Source of the DNA: Anaerocolumna sp.
GTDB taxonomy: Bacteria > Bacillota > Clostridia > Lachnospirales > Lachnospiraceae
Reading direction: 5' to 3'
Assembly (NCBI GenBank): GCA_029239455.1
Contig: JAQZAX010000003.1
Coordinates: 1 to 40,196 of the forward strand
Length of the DNA: 40,196 nucleotides
In this document: one piece after another, positions 15,393 through 35,759 of the stretch
Layout: each line of letters starts with the position of its first letter
Numbering within the stretch: the first letter of the stretch is position 1
Notes under the pieces: model-generated
The model's input: the letters and a program-made list of their open reading frames with translations, nothing else
Told to the model about the DNA's origin: nothing
The model's database searches: none
Made by a program: the position numbers and the translations under genes

Positions 15393-15400
15393 TATAAAAA

Positions 15401-15475: not shown

Positions 15476-15560
15476 CCCCTATATACATATTAGTCAAATT
15501 GTGGTAGAATACATTTATTCAAAAAAATTATACTAAGGAAGTGAATGTGATTACTTTACC

Positions 15561-16685
15561 ATGATAAATAAAATAACAACACAAATGGAACAAAATATGA
15601 CGGAGGAAGAGTTGTTATCTCTAAAGTTTTCTATCATCGCAAATGCATTTGTAGATACAAAGAATCTAAATAAAAATGAATTCTTCAGCCGTGTTTTTGA
15701 AACAGTATTTCTATTAATTCCCGAGGCGCAGAAAGGTTCTTTCTATGAACTGGATGGTGACATTTTTCGACCTGTATTTGGAAAGGGTTATGATATGGAT
15801 TTACTAAGAGAGCTGGCCTTTAGTAAAGATGAAGCCTTTATCGACTATTACAGCCCGTTAACTCAGGAGATTGATGCATATCAGGTAAATATTAATAAGC
15901 GTGATGATAGTTTATTTTCTGAAAGACAAATTACTATATTTAAACAGCTTGACACCTATTCGGACTTCGCTTCTCTTTATGCTCCGATTAAATTAGATGA
16001 TGTAAAAATAGGACTTTTGTGTCTTGAGAATTTTGATAAAAAGATGTTTTCTGAGACTTCGAGACTGGTATTAAAAATATTTGCAAGGTTAATATCAAAC
16101 TTTTACTCTTATAAAGTTTATCAGGAACTAGAAAGTAAAAGGTATAAAGACATCATAGATGCTTTAGTCTCTGCCATAGAAATTAAAGATGTTTATACAG
16201 AAGGACATGCGAAGAGGGTATCTGAAATCAGCATAAAAATTGCCCAAGTCATGGATATTCCGGCGGGCAGATTCAGAACCATTGAGATTGCCGCAATCTT
16301 ACATGACATTGGTAAGATTGGCACACCAACAGAAATACTGAATAAGACTTCAAGTTTGACAGAGGAAGAATTTGAAATTATTAAGAGACACCCTCTAGAT
16401 GCCAAGAAAATCTTAGATAAAATTCAGGGCTTTGAAGAAATTTCTGATTTAACCTATCGACATCACGAGTATTTTGATGGATCCGGTTATCCGGAAGGAC
16501 TGTCCGGTGATCAGATTCCAATAGAAGCTCACATTATCCAAGCAGCAGACGCACTGGATGCAATGACGTCTAAAAGAGCTTATCGTGAAGCAATGAGTAT
16601 TGAAACAGCACTAAATATATTTAAAAAAGAAAAAGGGAAACAATTTCATCCCGAAGTAACGGATGCAGTATTAAAGTTGTTTTAA
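15561..16685 (+). CDS. GAF-like plus HD-GYP cyclic di-GMP phosphodiesterase
   Basis: A 374-residue soluble protein. Residues about 35-185 look like a GAF-type sensory domain and residues about 190-374 form an HD-GYP domain, which hydrolyses c-di-GMP or related cyclic dinucleotides using bound metals. Visible catalytic residues are His248-Asp249 in LHDIGK, the HHE triad at 301-303, and the GYP motif at 309-311. The start ATG 15561 is forced by an in-frame TAA shortly upstream with no other start codon between; the AAGGAAG site is unusually far, about 18 bases. The TAA stop abuts palindrome R6. The gene faces the minus-strand HTH gene across that element. Confidence 0.92.
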   Translation: MINKITTQMEQNMTEEELLSLKFSIIANAFVDTKNLNKNEFFSRVFETVFLLIPEAQKGSFYELDGDIFRPVFGKGYDMDLLRELAFSKDEAFIDYYSPLTQEIDAYQVNINKRDDSLFSERQITIFKQLDTYSDFASLYAPIKLDDVKIGLLCLENFDKKMFSETSRLVLKIFARLISNFYSYKVYQELESKRYKDIIDALVSAIEIKDVYTEGHAKRVSEISIKIAQVMDIPAGRFRTIEIAAILHDIGKIGTPTEILNKTSSLTEEEFEIIKRHPLDAKKILDKIQGFEEISDLTYRHHEYFDGSGYPEGLSGDQIPIEAHIIQAADALDAMTSKRAYREAMSIETALNIFKKEKGKQFHPEVTDAVLKLF

Positions 16686-16760
16686 GGTGTCAGGCACCAT
16701 GAACAAATTGTGAACGGATATGTAATATCCGTTCATATTTTGTTCATGGTGCCTGACACC
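16686..16760. repeat. R6, dispersed palindrome, type A; closes two convergent genes
   Basis: A 75-bp element directly following the HD-GYP stop codon. On the minus strand its arm supplies the RCQAP tail and the TGA (16746-16744) of the HTH gene. The loop reads GGATAT-GTA-ATATCC. Two positions in the inner arm are mismatched, unlike most copies. Confidence 0.95.
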
Positions 16761-18372: not shown

Positions 18373-18733
18373 AGTTATTTCCTTTCATAAGGAACTATCA
18401 AGCCCGTTTCTAACTGTCGCAAATTTAGACACTATGTTTATGCTAGAACCTATCATACTATTTTTATCTTAATGTTACAACTAGACGAGTCCATAAGGTA
18501 AATTATTCTAGTAAAATGTCATAGACGTGTCATTGACAGTTACAAACGGATAGTATAAATACTCCCGTGATTCATCTATAATTGACATTACATATTATAA
18601 TTTGACACATAAGTAAGAAGGGAGGATCATTCTTTTAACTTAATTTTTATTAATAATTATGAATAAATAATAACAATAGGAAAAGAGATGATTAATGCTG
18701 CTAAAGTATTAATTTCACGTGGGAGGAAGAAAT
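18373..18733. other. Divergent intergenic region between the HTH gene and chemoreceptor 1
   Basis: About 360 A+T-rich bases without a gene. It contains the predicted minus-strand promoter of the HTH gene, an exact TGTCA-T-TGACA inverted repeat at 18528-18538, and further TTGACA/TTGACAT copies near 18583 and 18603. A plus-strand promoter using TTGACA 18533-18538 and TATAAA 18554-18559 would have a short 15-base spacer, so the chemoreceptor promoter is uncertain. Confidence 0.5.
18452..18480 (-). promoter_or_regulatory. Predicted promoter of the HTH gene
   Basis: On the minus strand TTGTAA (18480-18475) and TATGAT (18457-18452) are separated by 17 bases, ending about 80 bases before the start codon at 18372. 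Confidence 0.5.
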
Positions 18734-20788
18734 ATGGAGACAAATAACAGCGCGAAGAACAATTTGAAAACCACAAGTATAAAAACCACCAGTATAAAAA
18801 CGAAAAGTATAAAAACCAGACTAATACTCAGTTTCATTGGGTTAATTTTATTATCTTCCATTGCGTTAGGTGTAATTACCAGAAGGGTCGCCAGCAATAT
18901 TATCACCAATGAGGCCAGGAAAACAATCACGGAAATGGCTTTTGAAGCTGCCAGATTGGAAGAAGGACGGTTAGAAACCCAAAAGAAAACTTTGGAGCTA
19001 ATTACTGTCATAGACGGGATGGATGGTATGGATTGGAAAGTACAGCAGCCAATCCTAACGAATATGCTGGAGCATACTGCATTTAAAGAATTAGGGGTAG
19101 TGCAGATGGACGGAACAGTGAGCTATTCTGCAGGCAGTACAATACAAATAGAAAAATCAGATCCTGTAATGCAAGCATTAGTAAGTGGAAATGCTGTTAT
19201 TCACTTTGGTATCAGTCCAAGTTCGGGTGAATTAGTGCTAGTCCAGGCAGTGCCAATCAAAAAGGATGGTCAGATAGTAGGAGGATTACTTGGCCGCAGG
19301 GATGGGGAAGTATTAAGTGTCATGGCTGATGATACGGGCTATGGCGAAGAAGGTTTTGGATATATCATTGACGGAAAAGGTACTATCATTGGTCATAAAG
19401 ACAGGGAATATGTAACCAGCCAGAGTAACATAATAGAACAGGCCAAAAGTGACAATAATATGGCTTCTACTGCGGCAGTTTTGCAGGAAGCCTTAAACAA
19501 CAAAAATGGCACAGGGGAATACAATTATAATGGAAATCAGCGATTTGTAGGTTATTCGGCGATCAATGGAACTGATTGGATCTTCATTTTAGTTGCCAAT
19601 CGAAGCGAGATCTTAGCACCTATTGTAACACTACAAAATTATATCATTTTGATTGTTGTTCTAGTGCTAATTATAAGTATTGTCATTACGTATTTCATAG
19701 GACATTCCATAACCAAGCCGGTGATTGATACGGTAGCCTATGCCAATAAGGTTGCTGGTCTTGATTTAACCGAAAATGTAAAACCAAAATATTTAACAAT
19801 GAAAGATGAAATCGGAGATTTAGCTAAGGCACTTCAAAGCATCACCAATGGTGTCAGAAATATCATCGGAGAAATCAATAATTCCGCAGAACAGATGGCA
19901 GCCTCCTCAGAAGAGTTAACGGCAACTTCGCAGCAGACAGCCACTGCGTCACAGGAAGTAGCAAAAACCGTGGAAGAAATTGCCCAGGGAGCATCGGAAC
20001 AGGCTAAGCATACGGAAATAGGTTCCACGCAAGCTATTCAATTAGGAGCTACCATTGAAAAAGTGCAAGGATATATCAGTAATGTAAATTCATCGTCAAC
20101 AAAAGTAACAGATGTAGTATCCGAGGGGTTAAAAGAAATTGATGCCTTAAGTAAAATAACTGAGGAAAGCACGGAAGCCGTAGAGGAAATTTACCAGGTT
20201 ATTATGAAAACAAATGAAAGCTCCAATAAGATTGGTGAGGCAAGTAGTGTCATTGAATCCATAGCAGCTCAGACTAATTTGTTATCTTTAAATGCAGCCA
20301 TAGAGGCAGCAAGAGCGGGTGATGCCGGCAGGGGATTTGCAGTCGTTGCAGAAGAAATCAGAAAACTTGCAGAGCAGTCTTCCAATTCTACCAAGTTGAT
20401 AAATGAAATTGTAAGCGAGTTACAAGGTAATACAAGTAATGCAGTACAAACTATGCATAGAGTAACGGGCATATCACAAGAGCAATCAAACAGTGTTAAT
20501 AATAGTAAGAATAAATATAAATTAATTGCAGAATCCATGAATGAATCCATAGCGGCAGTAAAACAGCTGATTACCTCAGGAGAAGAGATGGATATGATGC
20601 GGCAGGAAATTCTGGATGTTTTAGAAAGCCTTTCTGCAATTGCAGAAGAAAATGCGGCAGCTGCAGAAGAAGCTTCAGCGTCTACGGAGGAACAAACTGC
20701 ATCCGTAGAAGAAATCGCAGGAGCAAGTGACAGTTTATCTGGTTTGGCACTGAATCTGCACAATTTAGTTGCGAAGTTCAAGCTTTAG
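18734..20788 (+). CDS. Methyl-accepting chemotaxis protein 1 (dCache, HAMP, signalling domain)
   Basis: A 684-residue chemoreceptor. A short cytoplasmic N-terminus with three tandem five-residue units ([15 protein letters not shown]) precedes a membrane segment at about 33-55. An extracellular dCache-like ligand domain follows (about 60-295), then a second membrane segment (about 300-322), a HAMP domain and a long cytoplasmic coiled coil. The hairpin tip [16 protein letters not shown], where CheA and CheW bind, is intact. The ligand is unknown. ATG 18734 has GGGAGG 8 bases upstream; an earlier GTG at 18719 would overlap that site. The cytoplasmic half is almost identical to the second receptor at 21884-24100, indicating duplication. 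Confidence 0.95.
18767..18811 (+). repeat. In-frame 15-bp tandem repeat at the start of chemoreceptor 1
   Basis: Three 15-bp units beginning AAAAC encode [10 protein letters not shown] and KTKSI; a fourth partial unit continues as KTRLI into the membrane segment. Confidence 0.9.
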
Positions 20789-20884
20789 TTGGATATGGGG
20801 ACATCATAGCTTAAACAGAAAGGGAGATGGGGGAAAATAAAGGGACATTTTAGAGTATTCGACGCATTTAAGAAATTACCCATT

Positions 20885-21667
20885 GTGCCGAACAGGAATG
20901 AACTTGAAAACGAGAGGAATCAGCTTAGTGAGATAGCAAAAGATATTGAAAAAGCAATAGTAAAAGAGGAATTTACACTGTATTATCAACCCCAGTTTGA
21001 CTTAAAAACTGGCAAAATTACAGGTATGGAAGCCCTAGTACGATGGATTCATCCGGTACGGGGGATGATTTCCCCGGCAATATTTATCCCATTTGCAGAG
21101 GAATCGAAACAGATCTATGCATTAGAGAAGTGGATATTTAGAAATGCTTTGCAGCAAAAAGCCCAGTGGGAAAAAGATGGTAGGAGGCATTTAGAGCTGG
21201 CAATCAACATATCAAGTAAAACATTGGGAAGCGAAGCAGCTTTTCATGAGATAGAAGAGATAATGCTGCGCTATAAAGTTGATTACACATCGGTGGTAAT
21301 TGAGATAACAGAAACAGCTTTGCTTGTGGATATGGAGCTGGCCGCAAAGCGAGTACATCGTCTTAAGAAGTTTGGGGTTAAAATAGCATTAGACGATTTT
21401 GGAACAGGATATTCCTCTCTGATGCATCTAAAAACATTACCCATAGACATAATCAAAATTGATAGAAGTTTCGTAGCCTTAGTACCGGAAGAGGAAAAAG
21501 ATACAATTATTATCAAAAATATTGTATCCTTTGCCCGTGATTTAAAATACCGCGTCGTAGCAGAAGGAATAGAAAAACAAGAACAGCTAGAGTTTTTAAG
21601 AGAAATCTCCTGTGAATCAGGGCAAGGCTTTTTGCTATGTAAACCAATAAGGTGTCAGGCACCATGA
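20885..21667 (+). CDS. Stand-alone EAL-domain cyclic di-GMP phosphodiesterase, C-terminus replaced by R7
   Basis: A protein of about 260 residues consisting of one EAL domain, which linearises c-di-GMP. Signature MEALVRW places the catalytic Glu at 49; the later metal and substrate residues are also visible in NIS, ITETALL, DDFGTGYSSL, IIKIDRSF, AEGIE and QGFLL, so catalysis should be possible. The last helix normal for EAL domains (after the KP-I/L motif) is missing: the reading frame runs from CKPI straight into R7, giving RCQAP and TGA. GTG 20885 is the first standard start but has no ribosome binding site. A good GGGAG site at 20822-20826 lies 10 bases before an in-frame ATA at 20837. It sits between two paralogous chemoreceptors. 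Confidence 0.88.
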   Translation: MPNRNELENERNQLSEIAKDIEKAIVKEEFTLYYQPQFDLKTGKITGMEALVRWIHPVRGMISPAIFIPFAEESKQIYALEKWIFRNALQQKAQWEKDGRRHLELAINISSKTLGSEAAFHEIEEIMLRYKVDYTSVVIEITETALLVDMELAAKRVHRLKKFGVKIALDDFGTGYSSLMHLKTLPIDIIKIDRSFVALVPEEEKDTIIIKNIVSFARDLKYRVVAEGIEKQEQLEFLREISCESGQGFLLCKPIRCQAP

Positions 21668-21725
21668 ACAAAATGTGAACGGATATTACATATCCGTTCA
21701 TATTTTGTTCACGGTGCCTGACACC
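21651..21725. repeat. R7, dispersed palindrome, type A; encodes the end of the EAL protein
   Basis: A 75-bp element. Its loop GGATAT-TAC-ATATCC is the reverse complement of the R6 and R10 loops, so the core is inverted relative to them. The flanks CAATAA (21645-21650) and TTATTG (21726-21731) also pair, lengthening the hairpin. Confidence 0.95.
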
Positions 21726-21742
21726 TTATTGTAAAAAAATGA

Positions 21743-21771
21743 TTGATTACAATTTCTTGCTGTGCTATAAT
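21743..21771 (+). promoter_or_regulatory. Predicted SigA promoter of chemoreceptor 2
   Basis: TTGATT at 21743-21748 and TATAAT at 21766-21771 have a 17-base spacer. The promoter lies 17 bases beyond R7 and leaves a leader of about 105 bases containing a stem formed by AATTTTGAGA and TCTCAAATT. Confidence 0.65.
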
Positions 21772-21883
21772 CTACCATTATGCAACCTATACACATAAAT
21801 GGAAAAAAGCAATTTTGAGAGCTTTTTAGTCTCAAATTATTGATTACTTCTACAGGACGGAGAAATAGGAAGGGAGCAGCACG

Positions 21884-24100
21884 GTGAAAAGATTTTTTAT
21901 AAAGATTAAGAATTTTATAAGGAACAAAAGAGCTCATAAAAACATAAGAGTTAAGAGAAGGTTCGGGAAGCGCAGCATTTTTAAAAGTAAAAGATTTCTA
22001 CAAAGTGAAAATATCATGTTAAATGAAAGCACAGTAATAACTGAAAGTGGTAAAATAGGTAAAAGAAATAAAATAGGTAAGAGAAATACAACTAGCAATG
22101 GCAATAAGACAAAGAAGAGCATAAAAATCAGATTAATTCTTAGCTTTATGGGATTAATTTTATTATCGTTACTAGGACTTGGTACCATAGCCATAACCAT
22201 AGCCAGCAATCTTCTAATTGGAGAAGCCAAGATTACAATCACGTCCTTAGCGGAAGAAGCAGCCAGATTAGAAGAAAGCCGTTTGGAAACACAGAAGAAG
22301 GCTTTGGATGTCATAGCATCTATGAACGAAATCCGGGAAATGGACTGGGAAGTTCAAAAAGAATTTCTTAAGAATCTGATTTCTGTTACCGGTTTTTATC
22401 AATTAGGAGTCATGCAGATGGATGGTTCCGTTGCTTATTCCAACGGAAATACATTCCAATATGACCAGACGGATCCTATACTAAAAGCCTTAACAGTTGG
22501 TAAGTCTGCAATCGATTTTAGTATTAATCCAAGTACTAAAAAATTAGTATTACTTCAGGCCGTTCCAATTAAAAAAGAAGGTAAAATTGTTGGTGCATTA
22601 ATAGGAAACAGAGATGGTAATGCCTTAGGTAATATGGCGGCTGATATGGGATATGGTGAAGAAGGATATGGCTTCATTATTGATGGCACTGGAACTATGA
22701 TCGGCCATGAAGACACACAAAAAGTAATGAGCCAATTTAATCCAATCGAAATGGCAAAAACGGATGACAATTATTCTACAATGGCCAAAACTATTAACGA
22801 AGCATTAGAATTAAAACACGGAACTGGCCAGTATACCTATGAAGGAAGAGAAGAATTTGTTGGGTATGCAACCATTGGCGAAACCAATTGGATCTTTGTT
22901 CTGGCAGCCAGTAAAAATGAAATATTAGCATCTATTGCAACCATGCAGAAGTTAATGATATTTATTATTGCCACTGTGTTAGTCATTAGTATAGTGTTAA
23001 CCTATATTCTGGGAGTATCTATTACGAAACCGGTGATTGGCACTGCAAACTATGCCAATAAAATTGCTAACCTTGACTTAACGGAAGATGTTAACCACAA
23101 ATATATGAAAATGGATGATGAAATTGGTCATTTGGCCAAGGCATTGCAAAGCATTACGGATAGTATACGAAATATCATAAGTGAAATTAATAATTCTTCT
23201 GAGCAAATGTCTGCTTCAGCGGAAGAATTAACCGCAACTTCCCAGCAAACAGCCACTGCATCCCAGGAAGTAGCAAGAACGGTCGAAGAAATTGCACAGG
23301 GAGCGTCAGAACAGGCGAAACATACTGAAGAAGGCTCATCCAAGGCTGTTTTATTAGGAACAACCATCGAAAAAGTGCAGGGATACATCGGTAATGTAAA
23401 TTCTTCTTCCCATAAAGTAACCCAAGTAGTATCCGAAGGATTACAAGAAATTGATTCTCTAAGCAAAATTACGGAAGAAAGTACTGCTGCTGTAGAAGAA
23501 ATCTACCAGGTTATTATGAAAACAAATGAAAGTTCTAATAAAATTGGTAAAGCAAGCAGTGTAATTGAATCCATAGCAGAACAGACGAATTTATTATCCT
23601 TAAATGCGGCCATAGAGGCAGCAAGAGCAGGGGATGCAGGCAGGGGATTTGCTGTAGTTGCTGACGAAATCAGAAAGCTGGCAGAGCAGTCTTCTAATTC
23701 TACCAAACTCATAAATGAAATTGTAAGCGAATTGCAAAGCAATACATTCAGTGCAGTAAATACAATGCAAAGAGTAACTGCCATTTCAAATGAGCAGGCA
23801 AGTAGTGTAAATAACAGTAAAGATAAATACAAATTAATTGCAGATTCCATGAAAGAATCCATAGCAGCCGTAGAACAGTTAAGTGCTTCCGGAGAAGAGA
23901 TGGATCAGATGAGACAAGAGATTCTGGATGTCCTTGGAAATCTATCATCCATTGCTGAAGAGAATGCGGCAGCAGCGGAACAAGCATCTGCTACAACGGA
24001 AGAACAGACTGCATCCGTTGAAGAAATTGCAGCGGCAAGCGACAGTTTATCCGAGTTGGCACTTAATTTACATGGGCTAGTTACGAAGTTTAAAATATAG
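21884..24100 (+). CDS. Methyl-accepting chemotaxis protein 2 (dCache, HAMP, signalling domain)
   Basis: A 738-residue chemoreceptor paralogous to the one at 18734-20788. The order of parts is the same: cytoplasmic N-terminus, membrane segment near residues 85-107, extracellular dCache-like domain, second membrane segment, HAMP, and a signalling hairpin with [16 protein letters not shown]. It differs by a longer N-terminal extension of some 80 residues, the first 45 of which are very rich in Lys and Arg, followed by a duplicated KIGKRN unit (22052-22087). The start is GTG 21884, with AGGGAG about 7 bases upstream; the ATG at 22016 has no clear site. Sequence identity is highest in the cytoplasmic half; the ligand domain has diverged, so the two may sense different compounds. 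Confidence 0.94.
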
Positions 24101-24103
24101 AGC

Positions 24104-24176
24104 GGTGTCAGGCACCCTTACAATTTTCTTACGAAAGTGAAACTTTCGTAAGAAATTCGTAAGGGTGCCTGACACC
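24104..24176. repeat. R8, dispersed palindrome, type B core
   Basis: A 73-bp element starting 3 bases after the chemoreceptor 2 stop and ending 5 bases before the stop of the convergent manA-like gene. The core contains TTTCTTACGAAAGTGAAAC and the matching TTTCGTAAGAAA. Confidence 0.95.
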
Positions 24177-24181
24177 GTTTT

Positions 24182-25111
24182 TCACACTGTTTTTATTACT
24201 ACTACTTCACCTTCCATCGTATATTCACCATATCCGGCAGGCAATATAAAGTGATCGCCTTTTACAATAGGAGTTCCGTCAATGTTTCCTTCTCCTTCAA
24301 CTACACTTAATATCGTAAAGGGTTCTTTTTGCTTAAAGGATTGGGAACCATTTACCCAAAGCTTGCTTACAGTATAATAGTCGCAGGAGATGAGATGCTC
24401 TACAGTAGCATTTTCAAATTCTATTATATTTCTGTCAGCGATTACTTCTTCATGAGGACAAGTTATCACATCAATGCATTTATTAATATGCAATTCTCTT
24501 GGCTTGCCATCAGACAGACGGTCATAATCATATAAACGATAAGTAATATCGCTGCTTTGCTGCGTTTCTAAGATTAAAGTACCTGTCTTAATTGCATGTA
24601 CGGTGCCAGGTTCAATCTGAAAGAAATCTCCCTTTTTAATAGGCAGTACCCGAATTAGATCGTTCCATTTCTGATTATCAATCATATCTTTTAATTCTGT
24701 TTTATCTTTCGCGTTATGCCCAATTACTATTTTACCGTCCGGGTCACAATCTAAGATATACCAGCACTCTGTTTTACCTAAAGCTCCATTTTCATGTTCT
24801 GCCGCATACCTATCATCCGGGTGTACCTGAATGCTTAAGTCATTTTTGGCATCAATAATTTTTACCAGTAATGGAAACACATCTCCCCTTACATTTCCAA
24901 ATAGTTCCGGGTGATTCTTCCATAAGCTGCTCAGTTTTTCTCCTTTAAACAACCCGTTTTTTACTGTGCAGTCTCCGTTTGCATGAGCACTCACTGCCCA
25001 GCATTCTCCCGTGTGATCACTTGGTATGTCATAGCCAAAATCGGATTTTAAGCGGCTGCCACCCCAAATCATTTCCTTTAGTACAGGTTCTAAAAATAAA
25101 ATATCTTTCAC
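24182..25111 (-). CDS. manA: Mannose-6-phosphate isomerase, class I
   Basis: A 309-residue cytoplasmic enzyme interconverting mannose 6-phosphate and fructose 6-phosphate, using zinc. The class I cupin signature is clear: EMIWGG near the start, the zinc-site motif QVHPDD near residue 95, KTECWYIL, and PGTVHAI near residue 170. Length matches the short Firmicutes form. The start is GTG at 25111, with AGGAGG 5 bases upstream. It diverges from a ROK fructokinase; together the two could feed mannose, fructose or sucrose-derived sugar into glycolysis. Palindrome R8 lies just past its stop. Confidence 0.93.
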   Translation of the reverse strand: MKDILFLEPVLKEMIWGGSRLKSDFGYDIPSDHTGECWAVSAHANGDCTVKNGLFKGEKLSSLWKNHPELFGNVRGDVFPLLVKIIDAKNDLSIQVHPDDRYAAEHENGALGKTECWYILDCDPDGKIVIGHNAKDKTELKDMIDNQKWNDLIRVLPIKKGDFFQIEPGTVHAIKTGTLILETQQSSDITYRLYDYDRLSDGKPRELHINKCIDVITCPHEEVIADRNIIEFENATVEHLISCDYYTVSKLWVNGSQSFKQKEPFTILSVVEGEGNIDGTPIVKGDHFILPAGYGEYTMEGEVVVIKTV

Positions 25112-25474
25112 AGTAACCTCCTATTAGTTATAATTCTTACTGATAATTCTTCACTCAATTCTTTAGAGAAACCTTCACTCAATCCTTCACTTAAAACCAC
25201 GCAGAAATGAAAATACCAGATTCAAAAATATAGTATCATATTTGTGATAAGAATGAAACCTTATAAATTTGTTGATGACATTAAAATAATTTGATTGATT
25301 GGAGTAGAACTGATTGAACGGGAATCAGTGAAAAGACTTCATTAAAATCCGAATCAATTAAAACAAGTTAATTATAAGTCTAAAAACCTAAATATATGTA
25401 TATGGACACGTTAAATATAACATGTTAATATAGGTATCAGAAAGGCTATTTTTATTATACGGAGGTAAATTAAC
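25112..25474. other. Divergent intergenic region manA / fructokinase
   Basis: About 360 bases with no gene. The manA side holds several CTTCACTCAAT-like direct repeats (25149-25195). The fructokinase side holds its predicted promoter and the 10-bp palindrome TAACATGTTA overlapping the -10 region, a possible operator. No riboswitch or clear carbon-catabolite site was recognised. Confidence 0.5.
25403..25431 (+). promoter_or_regulatory. Predicted promoter of the fructokinase gene
   Basis: TGGACA at 25403-25408 and TAATAT at 25426-25431 have a 17-base spacer. The palindrome TAACATGTTA at 25418-25427 overlaps the spacer and -10. Confidence 0.45.
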
Positions 25475-26350
25475 ATGTTATTTGGTGCATTAGAAGCAGG
25501 CGGAACTAAGATGGTACTGGCAGTTGGCAACGAATATGGTGAAATAATGGAAGAGATTTCAATTCCTACAAAAGAACCAGACACTACAATTCCATTGATT
25601 ATTGATTACTTTAAAGAGAAAAATATCAGCGCTTTGGGGATTGGTTCCTTTGGACCCATTGATTTAAATGATGAATCAAGTACCTATGGGTATATAACAA
25701 CAACACCAAAACTTGCCTGGGCAAATTATGACATTGTAGGCATTATGAAGAAGGCACTTTCTATTCCCATTGGCTTTGATACGGATGTGAATGGTTCGGC
25801 GTTAGGAGAAGCAACCTGGGGAATTACCAAAGGGCTTTCTTCTAGTGTCTATATTACCGTTGGTACAGGTGTAGGAGTTGGAGTATACATAAATGGAAGT
25901 CTTTTACATGGAATGCTGCATCCGGAGGCTGGTCATATACTGTTACAAAGACATCCGGATGATAATTTTGAAGGAGTTTGCCCTTATCACCCGAATTGTC
26001 TCGAGGGTTTAGCCTCTGGACCAGCCATTGAGAAACGCTGGGGGGAAAAAGCATCTGATTTAGTGGATAAACAAGAAGTGTGGGAGCTGGAAGCTTATTA
26101 TCTTGCACAAGCCATGGTAAACTATATATTAACACTTTCCCCTAAGCGCATTGTTTTAGGCGGTGGTGTAATGCATCAAATGCAATTGTTTCCATTGATT
26201 CGCACCCAGGTAAAAACATTTTTGAACGGTTACGTTAAAACGAAAGAGTTAGATAATCTGGATGAATATATAGTACCCGCCTCACTGGAGGATAAGCAGG
26301 GGATCATGGGTTGTATTCAGTTAGCAAAGCTTAGGTGTCAGGCACCGTGA
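25475..26350 (+). CDS. scrK: ROK-family fructokinase
   Basis: A 291-residue sugar kinase of the ROK family, most like Bacillus YdhR/GmuE-type fructokinases, which phosphorylate fructose with ATP. The N-terminal phosphate loop GALEAGGTKM is present, as are the substrate region DTDVNGSALGE, the VGTGVGVGV motif, and the zinc-binding part HPEAGH with GVCPYHPNCLEGLASG. Length equals the family norm up to about residue 286; the last five residues, RCQAP, and the TGA come from palindrome R9. The ATG follows ACGGAGG by about 8 bases. It diverges from manA; the shared intermediate fructose 6-phosphate supports a joint role. Confidence 0.9.
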   Translation: MLFGALEAGGTKMVLAVGNEYGEIMEEISIPTKEPDTTIPLIIDYFKEKNISALGIGSFGPIDLNDESSTYGYITTTPKLAWANYDIVGIMKKALSIPIGFDTDVNGSALGEATWGITKGLSSSVYITVGTGVGVGVYINGSLLHGMLHPEAGHILLQRHPDDNFEGVCPYHPNCLEGLASGPAIEKRWGEKASDLVDKQEVWELEAYYLAQAMVNYILTLSPKRIVLGGGVMHQMQLFPLIRTQVKTFLNGYVKTKELDNLDEYIVPASLEDKQGIMGCIQLAKLRCQAP

Positions 26351-26407
26351 ACAAAATGTGAACGGATATGAACATCTGTTCACATTTTATTCACGGTGCC
26401 TGACACC
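26334..26407. repeat. R9, dispersed palindrome, type A; encodes the end of the fructokinase
   Basis: A 74-bp element, more diverged than the others: several pairs are G-T wobble positions and one arm has lost symmetry near the loop. It gives RCQAP and TGA to the ROK kinase. Confidence 0.94.
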
Positions 26408-26460
26408 AAAGTAATGAAACTATGATAATATAATAAAAATAGAATATAAGGAGGTACACT

Positions 26461-26808
26461 ATGAATTTATTTGATACATTAGAAAAGGTAGGCGACACTA
26501 TTACAACACAAGGACAGGAAGTTGTAAAGAAGGCGAAAGAGGTTACAGAGAATGTGAAACTGAATGCCCAGATTCGTGAACAGGAGAACAAGTTAAAAGA
26601 TGCATATGCGGTTATTGGCAAGCTCTATTATGAAGAGAATAGAGATGCACAGGAAGAGAAATATGCGGATGCTTTTAAAACCATAGAACAGATTATTGAG
26701 AAAATAATAGAATTAAAGGGTACACAAACCTGTGAAAACTGTGGTACACAAGTAGATAAGGACGCAGTGTATTGCAGTAAGTGTGGAAGTAGGTGTCAGG
26801 CACCATGA
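26461..26808 (+). CDS. Small coiled-coil protein with C-terminal zinc ribbon
   Basis: A 115-residue protein. Residues 1-85 are helical and charged, probably a coiled coil, beginning MNLFDTLEKVGDTI. Residues about 88-110 form a zinc ribbon with two CxxC pairs (CENC and CSKC). Similar small proteins are common in Clostridia, without a known function. The zinc ribbon normally ends just after the second CxxCG, and here it runs into palindrome R10, which supplies RCQAP and the stop. AAGGAGG lies 5-6 bases before the ATG. A GATAAT at 26424-26429, 18 bases downstream of CTGACA inside R9, could serve as promoter. Confidence 0.82.
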   Translation: MNLFDTLEKVGDTITTQGQEVVKKAKEVTENVKLNAQIREQENKLKDAYAVIGKLYYEENRDAQEEKYADAFKTIEQIIEKIIELKGTQTCENCGTQVDKDAVYCSKCGSRCQAP

Positions 26809-26866
26809 ACAAAATGTGAACGGATATGTAATATCCGTTCATTTTTTGTTCATGGTGCCTGACACC
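26792..26866. repeat. R10, dispersed palindrome, type A; encodes the end of the zinc-ribbon protein
   Basis: A 75-bp element with loop GGATAT-GTA-ATATCC, the same orientation as R6. It begins in codon Arg-Cys immediately after the second zinc-binding CxxCG motif. Confidence 0.95.
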
Positions 26867-26977
26867 AATTCTACACATATTTTTCACACATTTTTCATTG
26901 TTTTTCGTTAGAATTATGTAGTAATATATGGGAAGTAGGCGTGGGGCTGTTATAACAATATGAGAAGGAGAAAGAGT

Positions 26978-28861
26978 ATGAAGAGAAAACGTGCATCCCA
27001 ATTAATGGCAATCATGATTGCGCTGTTAGCAGTTTTAGCACCGGCAGAGACCATAATGGCTGCAGATAGTGTAAACACAACCGCACAGATTATTCAGGCT
27101 ATGGGAATTATGAACACAGAGAGAGGCAGCAGTAATAGTGAATCAGCGACGGTTACCAGAGCAGAATTTGCGCAGATGTTGACTAATATGTCAACATTAA
27201 AAGACACAACTGCAGAGAAAAGCAACACATCGTTATTTAAAGATGTCTCCAAGGACTATTGGGCATCGGGTTACATAGAGACGGCGATTACCTGGGGGTG
27301 GATGTCAGGCTATTTAGATGGCACATTTTTGCCAAACAACGCTATTACTCTTCAGGAAGCAGTCAATGGCGTTTTAAAATTATTGGGATACACCAGCGCA
27401 GATTTTACCGGAAGTATTGGTTCGGGGCAGATGGCGCTTTACACTTCTAAGGGCTTAAATGCGAATATTTCGAAAACAGCAAAACAGACCCTTACCAGAA
27501 AAGATATCTCAAATCTATTGTATAACACCCTAACCACCACAGGAAAAGACGGTAAAATATATGCAGAAACCCTGGGATATTCCTTAGATGAAAATGGAGA
27601 GATAAACTATCTTTCTGTCATAAACACGGATATGGAAGGCCCCATTGTTGCTGATGATAACTGGAAGACAGAGATTCCATTTTCCATAACTTCTTCTGTT
27701 ACCTTCTATCGCAACGAAACGAAGAGCAATCTGACCGAAACCCAGGAATACGATGTTTTGTACTATTCTGAGAACATCAATACCATCTGGGCATACGACA
27801 ACAAAGTTACCGGAACGGTAAAAGACATCTATCCCAACCGATTGTCACCGTCTTCAGTAAATATTGGCGGAAATGAATACACAATAGGTACAAATGCAAT
27901 GGCTTATGAGTTCTCCACCCTGGGAAATGTTGATGCAGGAGACACGGTCACCATTTTGCTTGGCAAAGAGGATACCGTTGTGGGAGTACTTAGTTTAGAT
28001 GAATATAACACTACCATAACCGGAATTGTTACAAAGATTGGTGAGCATATGTCAACCGATGAAGAAGGTGATTACATTTACACCAACTACGTGGAGTTTG
28101 TGGATGCTAAAGGAAGTGTATTTCAGCAGGATTATGACATGACGTATCTTTCATTTTCAGAAGGCAACATTGCCCGGGTTACTTATAAAGATGGAGAGGC
28201 GACCGTTAGCAAATATGAAATGGAGAGCAGAAATTTCGGAGATAATACATTTTCAAGTGACGCCAGCATGCTAGGCGGTATTCCCCTTGCGTCAAACGTT
28301 AAGATTTTAGATTATTCTGAGGGTAACTATATCACCATTTATCCGGATAGACTTGCAAATGTAATCTTAGGAGGCAGCACCGTTCTTTATTATGAAATGA
28401 ATTCTATCGGCGAAATTACACAGCTGATTCTAAATAATGTTACCGGAGATTTATATGAGTATGGTGTGATTACAGGAATCACATTTACAGGTTCTGGCAC
28501 TGCCACACTAAATTATATGCTTAATGGCACCTCATACACTACAAACCCACAGCTAGAGAAGGGCTACAATCTTGATGCTGGTCCAAAAGGCTTCTTGTTT
28601 GAGGGCAACATCCTTTCAGACACCCTGACATTGACAGCAGTAGACATAGTATCTGTGGGAACTGCCACGGTTCAATCTTCAGACGGCAAATACCCCATGT
28701 CTGACAACGTTCTAGTATATTACCTTGTAAATGGTAAATATGCAGCAACAACTCTTGATAAAGTATCGGATAAAACAAAATATGAGTTAACCGGATATTA
28801 CGACAAAACCATACTTACCGGCGGACAGGTCAGAGTTATAATAGCAGAGAAGATAAATTAA
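26978..28861 (+). CDS. Exported SLH-domain protein
   Basis: A 627-residue exported protein. A signal peptide (basic start, hydrophobic stretch, likely cleavage near ETIMAADS at about residue 30) precedes S-layer-homology-like repeats: VTRAEFAQML, FKDVSKDYWASGYIETAITWGW and ITLQEAVNGVLKLLGY. SLH domains attach proteins to cell-wall polymers. The rest (about 210-627) is beta-rich with no recognised catalytic site. ATG 26978 has AAGGAG 7 bases upstream; the ATG at 26960 overlaps that site. It ends 19 bases before the adaptor gene of an ABC export system, so it may be an accessory surface component of that exporter. Confidence 0.88.
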   Translation: MKRKRASQLMAIMIALLAVLAPAETIMAADSVNTTAQIIQAMGIMNTERGSSNSESATVTRAEFAQMLTNMSTLKDTTAEKSNTSLFKDVSKDYWASGYIETAITWGWMSGYLDGTFLPNNAITLQEAVNGVLKLLGYTSADFTGSIGSGQMALYTSKGLNANISKTAKQTLTRKDISNLLYNTLTTTGKDGKIYAETLGYSLDENGEINYLSVINTDMEGPIVADDNWKTEIPFSITSSVTFYRNETKSNLTETQEYDVLYYSENINTIWAYDNKVTGTVKDIYPNRLSPSSVNIGGNEYTIGTNAMAYEFSTLGNVDAGDTVTILLGKEDTVVGVLSLDEYNTTITGIVTKIGEHMSTDEEGDYIYTNYVEFVDAKGSVFQQDYDMTYLSFSEGNIARVTYKDGEATVSKYEMESRNFGDNTFSSDASMLGGIPLASNVKILDYSEGNYITIYPDRLANVILGGSTVLYYEMNSIGEITQLILNNVTGDLYEYGVITGITFTGSGTATLNYMLNGTSYTTNPQLEKGYNLDAGPKGFLFEGNILSDTLTLTAVDIVSVGTATVQSSDGKYPMSDNVLVYYLVNGKYAATTLDKVSDKTKYELTGYYDKTILTGGQVRVIIAEKIN

Positions 28862-28880
28862 GCATAGAGAGGTAGCAGAT

Positions 28881-30704
28881 ATGAGTTTGTTTAAGAAAAT
28901 TGCCAGTGGAGGGACAAAAAAATCCCAACGTCCCGATGGACCTGGTAAAAGCATAAAAGGCAGAAAATACTTAAAATGGGTAGTTATTGTGATTGTAATT
29001 ATCATAGCAATATTGACTGTTAGAAACTTTATAAGTGGTAGGAGAAATAATAATACAGCAGCAATTACCACTGAAAATGTAAAAGTCGAGACTAGGGATA
29101 TTCAAAAGGTTCTCTCTTCTTCCGGCACAGTAGCACCACTGAGCACCTATGAGGTCAGAACCTTAGTTGAAGGCGAAATCCTTGCCGCAGACTTTGAAGA
29201 AGGTGACCAGGTAGAAGAAGGCGATATTCTATATCAAATAACGACAGATGATTTAGACAGCAAGATTGATTCAGCGAAGACCTCAGTTACAAGAGCCAGT
29301 GATGATTACAACAAGGCAGTGGAAAATTATGAAAAGGCAGCAGAGGACTATCAGGAAGCCTTAGACGATTACAATAAAGCAAAAGAAGATGTAGGAAACC
29401 CAAATGTAACTGCAGATGTTGCTGGAACAATAACAGCCCTTTCTGTGGAAGTGGGGGATACCATACAGGCAGGAACCCAGATTGCCAATGTGTATGATAA
29501 CAGCTCTATGCTACTTGAAGTACCTTTCCTCTCTTCCGAAGTTGATTCCACCCTGGTTGGTGAAGGGGCAGAAGTAGAACTGACCGACAGCTTTGAGGTA
29601 CTGGTTGGAACCGTTACGAAAGTGAGTAGTCTAGAACAGGTACTAAGTGGAAACCGATTGGTTAAGATGGTTACCATAAAGGTTGAAAATCCTGGTGGAT
29701 TAACCACATCAAATACGGCAACGGCGTCCATTGGCAGTCTCTACAGCAGTAGCGATGGCACATTTAAACCATTAGAAGATACCGTAATTCTGGCAGGAAA
29801 AAGTGGGGAAATTACCAGACTAAATATTGAAGAAGGCAGTAAAATAAATATTGGAGATGTACTTTTTGTATTAAGCGAAGATTCTGTAGAATCTTCCCTT
29901 GATAATTATGAGAAGAATTTAGACAGTGCGGATTCTGCTTTAGATAATGCAACATCACAGATGGAAAATGCAAAAGAAGCCATTGAAGATGCAGAAAGCT
30001 CTTTACAAGATCAGATTGATATGAAAACCGATTACAGCGTAACGGCACCAATCTCCGGACAGGTGATTCGCAAAGATGTCTTAGTTGGAGATACTATCAG
30101 TTCTAATTCATCATTATGTGTAATTTATGACCTGTCTGCGTTAACCTTTGAAATGTATATTGATGAACTTGATGTACTAAGCGTTAAAGTTGGCCAGGAA
30201 GTGGATATTACCGCCGATGCATTACAAGGTGTAGAAATAAGCGGTGTTGTCACTAATATCAGCTTGGAAAGCACTAGTAATAATGGAGTAACCCAATACC
30301 CTGTTACGGTTCGTATTGATGAAACAGGTGACCTATTACCGGGAATGAATGTTACAGGTGAGATTATTATTGAAAAAGTGGAAGGTGTTCTTGCAGTACC
30401 GGCAGATGCCTTAATGCGTGGTGATCTTGTATATGTGGCAGATGAATCAGTCACAGAGGCAGTTGGAGATGTACCTGCAGGTTATCGTTCGGTGGAAGTA
30501 GAAACCGGACTTTCCGATGGAGATTATATAGAAATTAAGAGTGGTTTAAACGGAGATGAGGAAGTATACGTGGTTCGGGCTACCGGTACGACAGAAACTA
30601 TTATGATGCCAGGCCAGTTTAATCAAGAGATGCCAAATGGGCAGACGAGACCTAGTGGAAGCGTCTTTGGTGGTGGCGGCGGAACCAGACCACAGTCACA
30701 GTAG
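28881..30704 (+). CDS. Membrane-fusion (HlyD/MacA-like) adaptor with duplicated lipoyl-hairpin modules
   Basis: A 607-residue adaptor for an ABC exporter, anchored by a membrane segment at about 33-52. Two lipoyl-like modules with helical hairpins occur in series. The first pairs EVRTLVEGEILAADFEEGD with ADVAGTITALSVEVGD, around a hairpin at about 135-170. The second pairs ILAGKSGEITRLNIEEGS with VTAPISGQVIRKDVLVGD, around a hairpin at about 335-375. A beta-barrel and C-terminal region with LPGMNVTGEI follow, and a Gly-rich tail. Usual MacA/YknX proteins are near 370 residues with one module. It precedes the ATPase by 17 bases and probably stabilises or gates the ABC permease at the cell surface. 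Confidence 0.9.
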   Translation: MSLFKKIASGGTKKSQRPDGPGKSIKGRKYLKWVVIVIVIIIAILTVRNFISGRRNNNTAAITTENVKVETRDIQKVLSSSGTVAPLSTYEVRTLVEGEILAADFEEGDQVEEGDILYQITTDDLDSKIDSAKTSVTRASDDYNKAVENYEKAAEDYQEALDDYNKAKEDVGNPNVTADVAGTITALSVEVGDTIQAGTQIANVYDNSSMLLEVPFLSSEVDSTLVGEGAEVELTDSFEVLVGTVTKVSSLEQVLSGNRLVKMVTIKVENPGGLTTSNTATASIGSLYSSSDGTFKPLEDTVILAGKSGEITRLNIEEGSKINIGDVLFVLSEDSVESSLDNYEKNLDSADSALDNATSQMENAKEAIEDAESSLQDQIDMKTDYSVTAPISGQVIRKDVLVGDTISSNSSLCVIYDLSALTFEMYIDELDVLSVKVGQEVDITADALQGVEISGVVTNISLESTSNNGVTQYPVTVRIDETGDLLPGMNVTGEIIIEKVEGVLAVPADALMRGDLVYVADESVTEAVGDVPAGYRSVEVETGLSDGDYIEIKSGLNGDEEVYVVRATGTTETIMMPGQFNQEMPNGQTRPSGSVFGGGGGTRPQSQ

Positions 30705-30721
30705 GAGGTGCATGATATAGA

Positions 30722-31462
30722 ATGATGGAATTAGGAAACGAAGAAAATAATGCACCGCTTATTGACCTTATTAATATTTTTAAAATCTATCAGATGGGAA
30801 CAACGGAGGTTCGTGCCAATGACGGAATCAGTCTTACCATATATGACGGTGAATTTGTGGCTATTGTGGGTAAATCCGGAAGTGGGAAATCAACAATAAT
30901 GAATATCATTGGTGCGCTGGATATTCCAACAGAAGGAAAGTATATCCTTAAGGGCCAGGATGTAAGCAAGATGAAAAGCGACCAACTGGCGACAATTCGC
31001 AATAAAACAATTGGGTTTATTTTTCAGCAGTACAATTTGCTGCCAAGGCAAAACCTCCTGGAAAATGTTGAATTACCCCTATTATATGGCGGCTACGGTG
31101 CGAAAGAGCGAAAGCAGCTGGCAATGGAGGCCTTAGCCCGGGTAGGAATCGAAGATAAATGGAAGAACTACCCTAATCAACTCTCCGGTGGGCAGCAACA
31201 GAGAGGCTCAATTGCAAGAGCTTTAGTAGGAAAGCCGTCCCTGATTCTAGCGGATGAACCTACAGGTGCCCTTGATTCTAAAACGAGCCGCGAGGTATTA
31301 GAGTTTCTTAAACAATTAAATGAAGAGGGAAATACCATAGTTTTAATCACCCATGATCCTACGGTAGCTGCTAAAGCGAATCGAGTTGTAAAAATGCATG
31401 ACGGCAAAATAGTATTCGATGGAACAGCCAGGGAGTATAAGGAACAGGAGGCAGCAGGATGA
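30722..31462 (+). CDS. ABC exporter ATP-binding protein (MacB/LolD/YknY-like)
   Basis: A 246-residue ABC ATPase that powers the permease encoded next. Walker A GKSGSGKS, the signature LSGGQQQR, Walker B LILADEPTGALD and a switch histidine in LITHDP are all intact. The family exports peptides, macrolides or lipoproteins; the substrate here is unknown. AGGAGG lies about 12 bases before ATG 30722, and a second ATG follows at once at 30725. Its stop overlaps the permease start by ATGA, typical of coupled ATPase-permease pairs. Confidence 0.93.
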   Translation: MMELGNEENNAPLIDLINIFKIYQMGTTEVRANDGISLTIYDGEFVAIVGKSGSGKSTIMNIIGALDIPTEGKYILKGQDVSKMKSDQLATIRNKTIGFIFQQYNLLPRQNLLENVELPLLYGGYGAKERKQLAMEALARVGIEDKWKNYPNQLSGGQQQRGSIARALVGKPSLILADEPTGALDSKTSREVLEFLKQLNEEGNTIVLITHDPTVAAKANRVVKMHDGKIVFDGTAREYKEQEAAG

Positions 31463-32631
31463 GCATTTTACAGGCATTTAAATTGGCGGGTAAGAGCATC
31501 GTAGGCAGTAAAATGCGTTCCTTTCTTACCATGCTTGGCATGATAATCGGCGTTGCTTCCGTCATTACCCTCATCGGATTAATGGAAGGGGTAACTAATT
31601 ATGTAATTTCTACATTTTCAGATATGGGCACCAATATGATATCCGTAACCGTTACCAATACAGATACCAGAAAGGTTGATGTGGATGCTGTGTATGAATT
31701 TACGGAGGAAAACAGTGATATTTTTCTTGGTGTAACTCCAAAAGTGAGTTCCAGATATACCGTGAAAAATGGAACAGAGTCCCTTACTACTTCCGTAACG
31801 GGTGTGGGCGAAGATTATTTGGAATTAAATAGTTTGGAGTTATCTGCCGGTCGCTTCATTCAGTACGCAGATATTAAAAACCGATACAATGGCGCCGTGA
31901 TTGGATCTTATATTGTAGAGGAACTATTTGACGGTAACGCAGCCTTAGGAGATACCTTTAAAATAAACGGTCAGGTTTATACTATTATTGGGATTCAAAA
32001 AGAGGAGGCGGATTCGGAGGCTAACTCCACGGATGATGTAGTTTATATCCCTTACTCAAACGCAACCAGGCTGGCAGGTTCAAATGACATCGGAAGTTAT
32101 TCCTTTGCAGCCATAGACAGTGAAACAGTGGAGGCCGGGGAAGAGGTTTTAGATAATTATTTGTATGGCATAATGAAAAATGAAGACCTCTATACTATAT
32201 CCAGCATGACCCAGCTACTGGAAACAGTAAATACCATGACCGGCATGTTATCCGCCATACTTGGAGGAATCGCAGGAATTTCCTTGCTGGTAGCAGGTAT
32301 TGGAATCATGAACATCATGCTTGTATCTGTAGTGGAGCGAACAAAGGAGATTGGTATCCGCAAATCCCTGGGAGCCAAAAAGCGTGATATTATGTGGCAG
32401 TTTGTCATAGAAGCCGCCGCTATCAGTACCATCGGCGGCGTCATCGGAATCATCATAGGGTACATTGCTACCAGGACCCTTGGCAGCGCCTTTGGAATTG
32501 AAGCGGCACCCACACTTAATTCTATCCTCTTAGCATTTGGCGTTTCAGCAGGTATCGGCATCGGATTTGGCTACATGCCCGCCAGCAAAGCGGCTAGCCT
32601 AAACCCCATCGATGCATTGCGAACAGAATAG
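31459..32631 (+). CDS. ABC exporter permease (MacB/FtsX-like, YknZ-like)
   Basis: A 390-residue permease with one N-terminal membrane helix (about 19-42), an extracytoplasmic MacB-type core domain (about 45-255) and three C-terminal helices (about 265-290, 310-340, 350-375) of the FtsX fold. The motif ERTKEIGIRKSLGAKKRDI is characteristic of this family. It overlaps the ATPase gene and ends the SLH-adaptor-ATPase-permease operon. Palindrome R11 begins 5 bases after the stop. The adaptor-ATPase-permease order matches Bacillus YknXYZ, which protects against a toxic peptide; a similar role is possible but not shown. Confidence 0.93.
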   Translation: MSILQAFKLAGKSIVGSKMRSFLTMLGMIIGVASVITLIGLMEGVTNYVISTFSDMGTNMISVTVTNTDTRKVDVDAVYEFTEENSDIFLGVTPKVSSRYTVKNGTESLTTSVTGVGEDYLELNSLELSAGRFIQYADIKNRYNGAVIGSYIVEELFDGNAALGDTFKINGQVYTIIGIQKEEADSEANSTDDVVYIPYSNATRLAGSNDIGSYSFAAIDSETVEAGEEVLDNYLYGIMKNEDLYTISSMTQLLETVNTMTGMLSAILGGIAGISLLVAGIGIMNIMLVSVVERTKEIGIRKSLGAKKRDIMWQFVIEAAAISTIGGVIGIIIGYIATRTLGSAFGIEAAPTLNSILLAFGVSAGIGIGFGYMPASKAASLNPIDALRTE

Positions 32632-32636
32632 TTTAT

Positions 32637-32711
32637 GGTGTCAGGCACCCTTACAAATTTCTTACGAAAACGTTTCGTTTTCGTAAGAAATTCTTAAGGG
32701 TGCCTGACACC
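32637..32711. repeat. R11, dispersed palindrome, type B core
   Basis: A 75-bp element between the exporter operon and the VanZ-like gene. It begins 5 bases after the permease stop, and the next promoter starts 2 bases beyond its end. The core contains TTTCTTACGAAAACG and its complement. Confidence 0.96.
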
Positions 32712-32778: not shown

Positions 32779-33276
32779 TTGGGTAGCATACTGAATAATC
32801 AAAAATCAAATAAAATATATAACGTATTATCAATGATTCCTGCCATAGTTATCATGGTTGGAATATTCTACTTTTCCTCTCAGGATGCATTGGAGTCCTC
32901 AAGCTTAAGCGGTGGAATCGTAGAGAATATATATCAAGTAATTGAGAAGTTTTTTAACTGGGAATTAACAGCTGCCCATAGAATACAGAGACTGGAGTTG
33001 TTTGAAACTGGAATCAGAAAAGCAGCTCATATGACGGAGTATTCATTGTTAGCAGTTACAGTTGCTTATCCCCTATATCTTTATGGCAGCAGAGGGTATA
33101 AACTTGTTCTTCGTACGGAACTTATTAGTATATTGTATGCTGTCACTGATGAAATTCATCAGCTGTATGTACCGGGACGCTCCGGGCAGATATCTGATGT
33201 ACTAATTGATGGCACAGGAGCGCTAATTGGATGTTTGTTATTTGTATTTTTAGGTGTCAGGCACCATAAACTTTAG
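32779..33276 (+). CDS. VanZ-like membrane protein, C-terminus supplied by R12
   Basis: A 165-residue membrane protein of the VanZ-like family, with about four helices (17-35, 84-102, 110-125, 143-158). Typical conserved parts are FYFSSQDA after the first helix, RKAAHMTEYSLLA, and YAVTDEIHQLYVPGRSGQ followed by DVLIDGTGALIG. VanZ confers low-level teicoplanin resistance in enterococci, but most relatives have no assigned role. The start is TTG 32779, with AAGGAAG about 9 bases upstream. The last seven residues, GVRHHKL, and the TAG lie inside minimal palindrome R12, in a different reading frame from the RCQAP genes. Confidence 0.88.
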   Translation: MGSILNNQKSNKIYNVLSMIPAIVIMVGIFYFSSQDALESSSLSGGIVENIYQVIEKFFNWELTAAHRIQRLELFETGIRKAAHMTEYSLLAVTVAYPLYLYGSRGYKLVLRTELISILYAVTDEIHQLYVPGRSGQISDVLIDGTGALIGCLLFVFLGVRHHKL

Positions 33277-33294
33277 TTTATGGTGCCTGACACC
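33253..33294. repeat. R12, minimal 42-bp palindrome, type C
   Basis: A perfect hairpin of 20 paired bases with a two-base loop. It keeps the outer GGTGTCAGGCACC arms but replaces the long core by ATAAACT-TT-AGTTTAT-like sequence. It encodes the last residues and stop of the VanZ-like protein and is the copy nearest to the RAYT gene, about 0.7 kb away. Confidence 0.95.
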
Positions 33295-33708: not shown

Positions 33709-33720
33709 ATAGGAATATGT

Positions 33721-33752
33721 AAAATCAGGCCAGGTTGAACCCGCCTGATTTT
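33721..33752. terminator. Hairpin terminator after the small gene
   Basis: AAAATCAGGC (33721-33730) and GCCTGATTTT (33743-33752) form a 10-bp stem around a 12-base loop. The T-run lies within the stem end, so it could act in both directions. Confidence 0.65.
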
Positions 33753-33929
33753 ACAATTGCTATTTTATGTGAAATGCGATATGATAATAGTATATTTGCT
33801 TTCATTATATCTTTTTTTCTACAATTCTTTATCATCTAAACTAAATTATAAAATATTTACTTTTTATCTTTAATCTATTACTTTTACCCATGAAATAAAC
33901 CCATTTTCTAATGAATCTATTTGCCATCC

Positions 33930-33959: not shown

Positions 33960-33988
33960 AATTTAATCAAGCAAGGAGATGATGTTTT

Positions 33989-34519
33989 ATACCAAGAAAG
34001 AAGAGAATATGGTACCCTGGAGCTGTATATCACGTGATAAACAGGGGAAATCATAAAAGTGATATTTTCCGTGAGGAAGAAGATTACCGAATGTTCCTGA
34101 AATTGTTAGAGAAAGCCCAGAAACAATACACCTTTTTTATTATTTCGTACTGCCTGATGACGAATCACGTACATTTGCAAATTGAAACTTCAACTTTCCC
34201 AATCTGGGATATAACTAAATATCTGTTCTGCACTTATTCTCATTATTTTAATCGAAAATATGATGAATTCGGGCATTTATTCCAGGGCAGATACAATTCT
34301 GAAATAATCGATGATGATGCTTATTATCTGGAAACCAGCAGATATATTCATTTAAATCCCGTGAAAGCCCATATAGTTACAAAGCCCATTGATTATCCCT
34401 GGAGCAGCTACAGCGCATATATGGGTGCAAGCAAATGTAGTCTTGTGAGTGAAGGTAAAATACTGGAATACTTCTCTAAAAATTCACGTTCATATAAGGA
34501 GTTTGTTGAAGCAAGATAA
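33989..34519 (+). CDS. REP-associated tyrosine transposase (RAYT, Y1/IS200-like), apparent ATA start
   Basis: A 176-residue single-domain Y1 transposase of the RAYT group, which nicks single-stranded palindromic REP sequences using an HUH motif and one tyrosine. The N-terminal IPRKKRIWYPGAVYHVINRG matches the family start, the HUH site is NHVHLQIE, and FQGRY plus YIHLNPVKA are typical RAYT blocks; a candidate nucleophile is the Tyr of GRY. The family-like first codon is ATA at 33989, with AAGGAG exactly 10 bases upstream, while the first ordinary start, GTG 34034, would drop the first beta strand. Either ATA initiates weakly or the start has been mutated from ATG. It is flanked by 13 palindromes of one family in this window. 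Confidence 0.85.
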   Translation: MPRKKRIWYPGAVYHVINRGNHKSDIFREEEDYRMFLKLLEKAQKQYTFFIISYCLMTNHVHLQIETSTFPIWDITKYLFCTYSHYFNRKYDEFGHLFQGRYNSEIIDDDAYYLETSRYIHLNPVKAHIVTKPIDYPWSSYSAYMGASKCSLVSEGKILEYFSKNSRSYKEFVEAR

Positions 34520-35684: not shown

Positions 35685-35759
35685 GGTGTCAGGCACCCTT
35701 AAGAATTTCTTACGAAAACGTACTGTTTTCGTAAGAAATTCTTAAGGGTGCCTGACACC
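35685..35759. repeat. R13, dispersed palindrome, type B core, with pairing flanks
   Basis: A 75-bp hairpin between the convergent corA and P450 genes, 7 bases from one stop and 2 from the other. The flanks AAAATAATT (35676-35684) and AATTATTTT (35760-35768) are also perfect complements and contain parts of the stop codons of both genes. Confidence 0.96.

Follow-up and report, generated by a model that had tools for sequence, protein, structure and literature searches.

The window, i.e. the whole stretch of 40,196 nucleotides analysed here, is one contig of a 75%-complete Anaerocolumna assembly (G000). It carries the gene of a putative HuH-Y1 transposase of the RAYT/TnpA-REP type, read from an ATA codon, as well as 13 REP/REPIN-like palindromes, twelve of 73-75 bp and one of 42 bp (Table 1). 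The hairpin that separates the transposase gene from the preceding ORF does not belong to the REP family. Just 5' of the Shine-Dalgarno (SD) element, at positions 33926-33965, a 10-bp direct repeat (ATCCAAATCA-like) recurs imperfectly in three to four copies. An Rfam search around the gene gave no match, a promoter scan at the locus performed the same as on shuffles, and no RNA structure masking the start was predicted (z +0.77).

Table 1. Features of the RAYT locus and REP-like palindromes of the window.
Feature	Position	Strand	Remarks
RAYT/TnpA-REP-like HuH-Y1 transposase gene	33989..34519	+	176 aa plus stop, as read from AUA
Proposed AUA start codon	33989..33991	+	AUA/AUU/AUC in 8/8 clade members
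Extended Shine-Dalgarno AAGGAGATGATG	33973..33984	+	core AAGGAG 33973-33978; pairing about -12 kcal/mol
ATGATG, out of frame	33979..33984	+	overlaps extended SD; frame ends at TAA 34054-34056
GTG, codon 16, first in-frame canonical start	34034..34036	+	weak SD (-6.5 kcal/mol); start not conserved
HUH motif codons H60-V61-H62	34166..34174	+	H60 and H62 invariant in 25 aligned sequences
Presumed catalytic tyrosine codon Y119 (RYIHLNP)	34343..34345	+	invariant in 25 aligned sequences
Hairpin between preceding ORF and RAYT gene	33718..33755	.	13-bp perfect arms; terminator-like on minus strand
Nearest upstream REP-like palindrome	33253..33294	.	42 bp, GGTGTCAGGCACC...GGTGCCTGACACC
Nearest downstream REP-like palindrome	35685..35759	.	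75 bp hairpin, same 13-bp ends
Eleven more REP-like palindromes	span 1796..32711	.	73-75 bp; starts 1796, 3241, 11571, 13379, 15401, 16686, 21651, 24104, 26334, 26792, 32637

Judging by sequence and predicted fold, the enzyme is a small RAYT/TnpA-REP-like single-strand DNA transposase, found in gut-type Firmicutes. The protein matches Pfam Y1_Tnp (E 2.5e-12) and spans the whole NCBIfam model REP_Tyr_transpos at 68.9 bits, below the cut-off of 80. Because REP_Tyr_transpos is the sole NCBIfam family match and is common to all 25 aligned members, the assignment as RAYT-like can be regarded as safe; that as a strict equivalog cannot. A sequence search among solved structures gave none matching the protein. 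In the case of the AlphaFold model (mean pLDDT 87, residues 1-5 low), the top fold match in the PDB was 4ER8, a RAYT bound to its REP hairpin (E 4e-9). REP repeats moreover occur in the genome at large and on either side of the gene, as is characteristic of a RAYT. Purifying selection from codon 2 onward, with frames intact, is shown by the sequences compared: between relatives sharing ATA, ATT or ATC (ATH; AUH in the RNA) at the start position, codons 2-14 gave pN of 0.07-0.20 vs pS of 0.44-1.02, in ungapped pairwise counts close to synonymous saturation. The enzyme appears functional, because frames are intact, the HUH and tyrosine motifs are kept, the fold matches 4ER8 and, as described below, the palindromes track the gene. 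No relatives were found in viral contigs and phages, and plasmid-borne ones were only distant (34-41% identity). G000 itself gave a single RAYT match and no second copy, as expected of a RAYT rather than a multi-copy IS, a further one being possible at 75% completeness.

Upstream of the gene, the frame reads TGA (33980-33982), then TGT TTT ATA CCA AGA AAG AAG AGA ATA TGG TAC CCT GGA, and from the ATA at 33989 it stays open for 176 codons to the stop at 34519. Family homology within the open frame begins only at this ATA. An earlier note on this DNA had claimed as much for the conserved RAYT N-terminus, which sequence and translation bear out exactly. It had also correctly placed AAGGAG 10 bases upstream; by duplex alignment the distance between core and ATA is 9 nt, by direct reading 10 nt lie in between. 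Likewise confirmed were the lack of any in-frame ATG, GTG or TTG between the TGA and GTG 34034, and the position of the ATGs 33979 and 33982 in another, soon-stopping frame, which they share.

To place this codon in context, relatives were collected from 145 close genomes, from samples at family, order, class and phylum level, and from GTDB contigs. A maximum-likelihood tree of 71 rows (the W-Y-P-G subfamily plus outgroup) was made without the start residue, and for each relative the codon aligned to the family start was read. This codon was ATG in 47 rows, TTG in 9, ATA in 6, GTG in 5, ATT in 3 and ATC in 1. The 10 ATH rows are not scattered: two changes are needed on the tree vs 9.5 in shuffles. 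All 8 members of the window clade, spanning several genera at about 55-65% protein identity, carry ATH, so that the comparison with close relatives suggested in the earlier note gave AUA, AUU or AUC at the same place throughout. The clade consists of two well-supported subclades (bootstrap/SH-aLRT 100/99 and 96/97) joined by a weak node (80/49), and L065/L091 form a second, separate ATH pair. Among 60 more distant relatives no AUH start was seen. Three distant relatives have CTA, AAA or TGC at the start position, with a canonical start at most three codons away in each, and these are probably register errors. Extra searches within three carrier genera returned L140 as the sole further copy with ATH at this position.

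The pattern of bases is informative. At the ten ATH loci, the first base (A, 10/10) and the second (T, 10/10) are invariant, and the third is A in six, T in three, C in one and never G; conservation of the flanks is limited to the SD and the coding region. In 10/10 loci the SD core stands 7-9 nt 5' of ATH (median 7, equal to ATG relatives), with pairing energies of -9.3 to -15.9 kcal/mol, only marginally stronger than at ATG loci (p = 0.07). Because AUH stands at ten related loci in exact SD register, chance does not explain it, and the alignment indicates that the codon is the start and not an internal isoleucine. Residue 2 is small (A/P/T/G/S) in all ten, like in ATG relatives. Before such a residue methionine aminopeptidase would remove residue 1, whose side chain is then free to vary and has therefore no reason of its own to be conserved.

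On these grounds we hold it to be quite probable that translation of a functional RAYT truly begins at ATA 33989, and that the weak AUH start has been retained to keep the enzyme scarce. It could be objected that AUH simply works adequately, as a historical accident of neutral drift without regulatory benefit. Indeed, about two origins suffice on the tree, and at the third base A, T and C replace one another freely. We regard this as unlikely, since with synonymous sites near saturation AUG must have arisen often by a single change and was retained in none of the eight clade members; given the low G content at AT-rich third positions, the missing AUG is by itself only suggestive.

A start elsewhere is, in our estimation, rather improbable, and takes three forms. 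Firstly, a standard ORF caller opens the gene at GTG 34034, expression from which, in relatives with ATA, the earlier note had named as grounds for refuting its view. The comparison does not bear this out. The codon sits within the first beta strand. Initiation there would cut off the conserved R-K and W-Y-P-G residues; it is not conserved, L003, L063 and L091 having no canonical start at that position, and it is without a comparable SD. Secondly, some sisters offer an upstream in-frame ATG, at codon -6 in L034, L063 and L044 and at -2/-3 in L140. The ATG codons at -6 precede the SD and are not themselves served by one (-0.9 to +1.3 kcal/mol). Taken over all ATH loci, an in-frame ATG, GTG or TTG stands 2-11 codons upstream in 6/10, without a good SD. 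As 5/10 ATH loci vs 20/61 canonical relatives have a canonical codon within 7 codons upstream, such codons seem close to background. The best in-frame alternative tested reached -8.2 kcal/mol, and at each locus the alternatives were weaker than the SD at ATH. Furthermore, at L001, L002, L003 and L062/L031 there is no upstream in-frame canonical start short of a stop, and downstream such a codon first appears at position 16, 16, 57 and 7 of the frame, respectively, leaving no other usable start. Thirdly, ribosomes could initiate at ATGATG (33979/33982) and shift frame. At ATG 33982 the SD is partial (-7.7 kcal/mol), and ATGATG follows GGAG in L001, L002 and L031; GGAGATGAT is also near an extended SD complement. 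However, the last ATG lies 7, 6 and 5 nt ahead of ATH in these loci, i.e. in three different frames, and in L002 a stop intervenes; therefore a conserved frameshift does not fit.

Turning to the palindromes, all 13 in the window end in identical 13-bp ends, GGTGTCAGGCACC and GGTGCCTGACACC. Their interiors vary by compensatory changes and fall into two subfamilies (TGAACAAA... and CTTACAAATTTCTTACGAAA...). When nine 75-bp copies were aligned, 98.4% of cells proved to be paired; both sides have changed in 13/35 pairs, vs 2-4 in control slides. One copy folded as single-stranded DNA gave -41.8 kcal/mol (z -14.5).

A half-site motif, GGTRYCWGRYACC, was derived from a hairpin search near ATH loci and counted across genomes, with the reversed pattern as control (0 in G000, 0-2 across all genomes). 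In the genus of the window, two genomes with the RAYT gene were searched and held 90 (G000) and 78 (G013) half-sites, vs 0-6, near background, in nine genomes without it. Elsewhere there were 219 in the Anaerobium-like G178, 62 in G322 and 13 in G063, and one each in the two genomes of the second ATH pair. The window contig, 1.6% of the assembly, holds 26 of the 90 half-sites of G000. Within the genus of the window, then, the motif tracks the RAYT gene in the genomes compared. It is also found close to some ATG-starting relatives (L064, L119) and is therefore tied to the RAYT family, not to the start codon. Palindrome abundance would thus speak for activity of this RAYT type, present or past, without indicating the timing or the start codon.

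The placement of the hairpins is also worth describing. Twelve of the 13 (starting at 1796, 3241, 11571, 13379, 16686, 21651, 24104, 26334, 26792, 32637, 33253 and 35685) begin at most about 25 nt from where a plus-strand ORF ends, and those at 13379, 21651, 26334 and 26792 themselves contain, at offset 15-17, the TGA that terminates the ORF. The hairpins may act as terminators or target gene ends.

That a single G-to-A change has silenced the enzyme, as the earlier note had considered, leaving a dying gene or young pseudogene, is hardly credible: AUG to AUA is indeed a single transition, and the genome of the window has no canonical start near the RAYT N-terminus, but AUH is fixed in 8/8 diverged clade members with frames otherwise intact, catalytic residues are conserved under purifying selection with pN far under pS, REP-like palindromes are plentiful alongside the gene, and independent losses hitting only the third start base, never the first two or the frame, are implausible. 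Neither does a sequencing error at 33991 account for the codon, since relatives also have ATH, including the isolates Anaerobium acetethylicum (ATC) and Herbinix hemicellulosilytica (ATA); an assembly error in the genome of the window is therefore not the explanation.

A throttled RAYT is consequently, as far as comparison can tell, the best account, and the ATA looks like a long-kept translational brake rather than a broken gene. Mechanistically, the SD element would set the 30S subunit over the AUH codon (AUA in the window, AUU or AUC in sisters), and initiator fMet-tRNA would pair with its first two bases, A and U, leaving the third mispaired. IF3 would disfavour this complex and remove most of it, such that a small fraction of ribosomes initiate. 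The clade would retain the weak start because a trace of enzyme suffices to maintain and spread the palindromes, and a higher level would be costly. The view of the earlier note that rare AUA initiation keeps the enzyme very low is well supported comparatively; we infer the initiation at AUA, the low yield itself, the part played by IF3 and why the start is selected. Published work is consistent with these steps. Weak third-base pairs are excluded by IF3 (PMC10158994), and expression from S. aureus AUA and AUU starts that have extended SDs is about 10% of that from AUG, the AUA start of ccpN rising to about 30% in rich medium (PMC13009471).

Several known systems bear comparison. The gene of IF3, infC, starts with AUU, AUA or AUC and shares with our case a strong SD and an AUH start mispaired only at the third base and conserved across species; in the RAYTs, too, AUH in SD register is conserved among relatives (10 loci, 8/8 in the clade). 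The difference is that infC encodes IF3 itself, closing a feedback loop, whereas the RAYT is a DNA-processing enzyme, on which control by IF3 would be one-way. In G063, G710 and G178, the three of nine genomes that the pattern used could read, the infC start is read as ATT, accompanied by GGAGG; the hosts therefore use AUH starts elsewhere. The S. aureus ccpN (AUA) and cvfC1 (AUU) are likewise conserved Firmicutes AUH starts with extended SDs (PMC13009471), but they belong to host regulatory or small proteins, and their initiation is experimental, that of the RAYT comparative only. Streptomyces sigR is restrained through IF3 at a non-canonical start, which is kept for this purpose and misannotated in databases (PMC5472188); its start is GTC rather than AUH and its product a sigma factor. 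Among mobile elements, IS911 orfB, a protein beginning at an AUU codon according to Polard 1991 as cited in PMC6211511 (ref. 19), means that non-AUG starts in such elements are already known. IS911 is an IS3-family DDE element with frameshifting; the RAYT is a single-ORF HuH-Y1 enzyme whose AUH start extends across several genera, alternating between AUA, AUU and AUC. With the E. coli RAYT/TnpA-REP (4ER8) and its REP/REPIN sequences, the window shares the fold, the HUH and Tyr motifs, the single copy and the flanking, genome-abundant palindromes. It differs in the non-AUG start, in palindrome ends (GGTRYCWGRYACC) that lack a recognised GTAG tag, and in the long, nearly perfect hairpins. Literature searches, with subscription journals mostly outside their coverage, turned up neither a paper describing RAYTs that start at a non-AUG codon nor a relevant one on the window palindrome. 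A clade-wide AUH start alternating at its third base was likewise absent for RAYTs from the literature covered, such absence being weak evidence.

To our knowledge, few bacterial genes have a conserved start besides AUG, GUG and UUG. Gene callers miss or truncate such starts, the call from GTG 34034 dropping 15 residues here. The clade, alternating between AUA, AUU and AUC, would amount to a replicated experiment of nature on the retention of weak starts, and would suggest how a vertically kept transposase is held down to a level that allows coexistence with its palindromes; Anaerobium and Herbinix offer cultured carriers for testing. More tentatively, and with considerable doubt, this lineage might have hard-wired an IF3-sensitive AUH start as a translational governor, tying the spread of REP/REPIN sequences to the state of initiation fidelity, e.g. 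IF3 level or growth conditions.

A few observations on individual relatives can be added. A neighbouring branch of Lachnospiraceae RAYTs (L038, L041, L042, L048, L050, L053, L056, L067, L069 and L070) has mostly TTG or GTG starts, and weak starts in general may thus be favoured in this family. In the case of L140 (G063:C8), the second RAYT copy in the genome of L002, the start position holds ATT and an in-frame ATG two codons upstream has a fair SD (-8.2 kcal/mol). Initiation at this ATG is plausible from the sequence, and L140 would then be a possible escape from the weak start. In L002 itself (G063:C31), the sequence just 5' of the ATA is GAGGAGATGATGTAA-ATA, so that a two-codon AUG-AUG-UAA frame adjoins the AUA start; it might couple to initiation at the AUA or compete with it.
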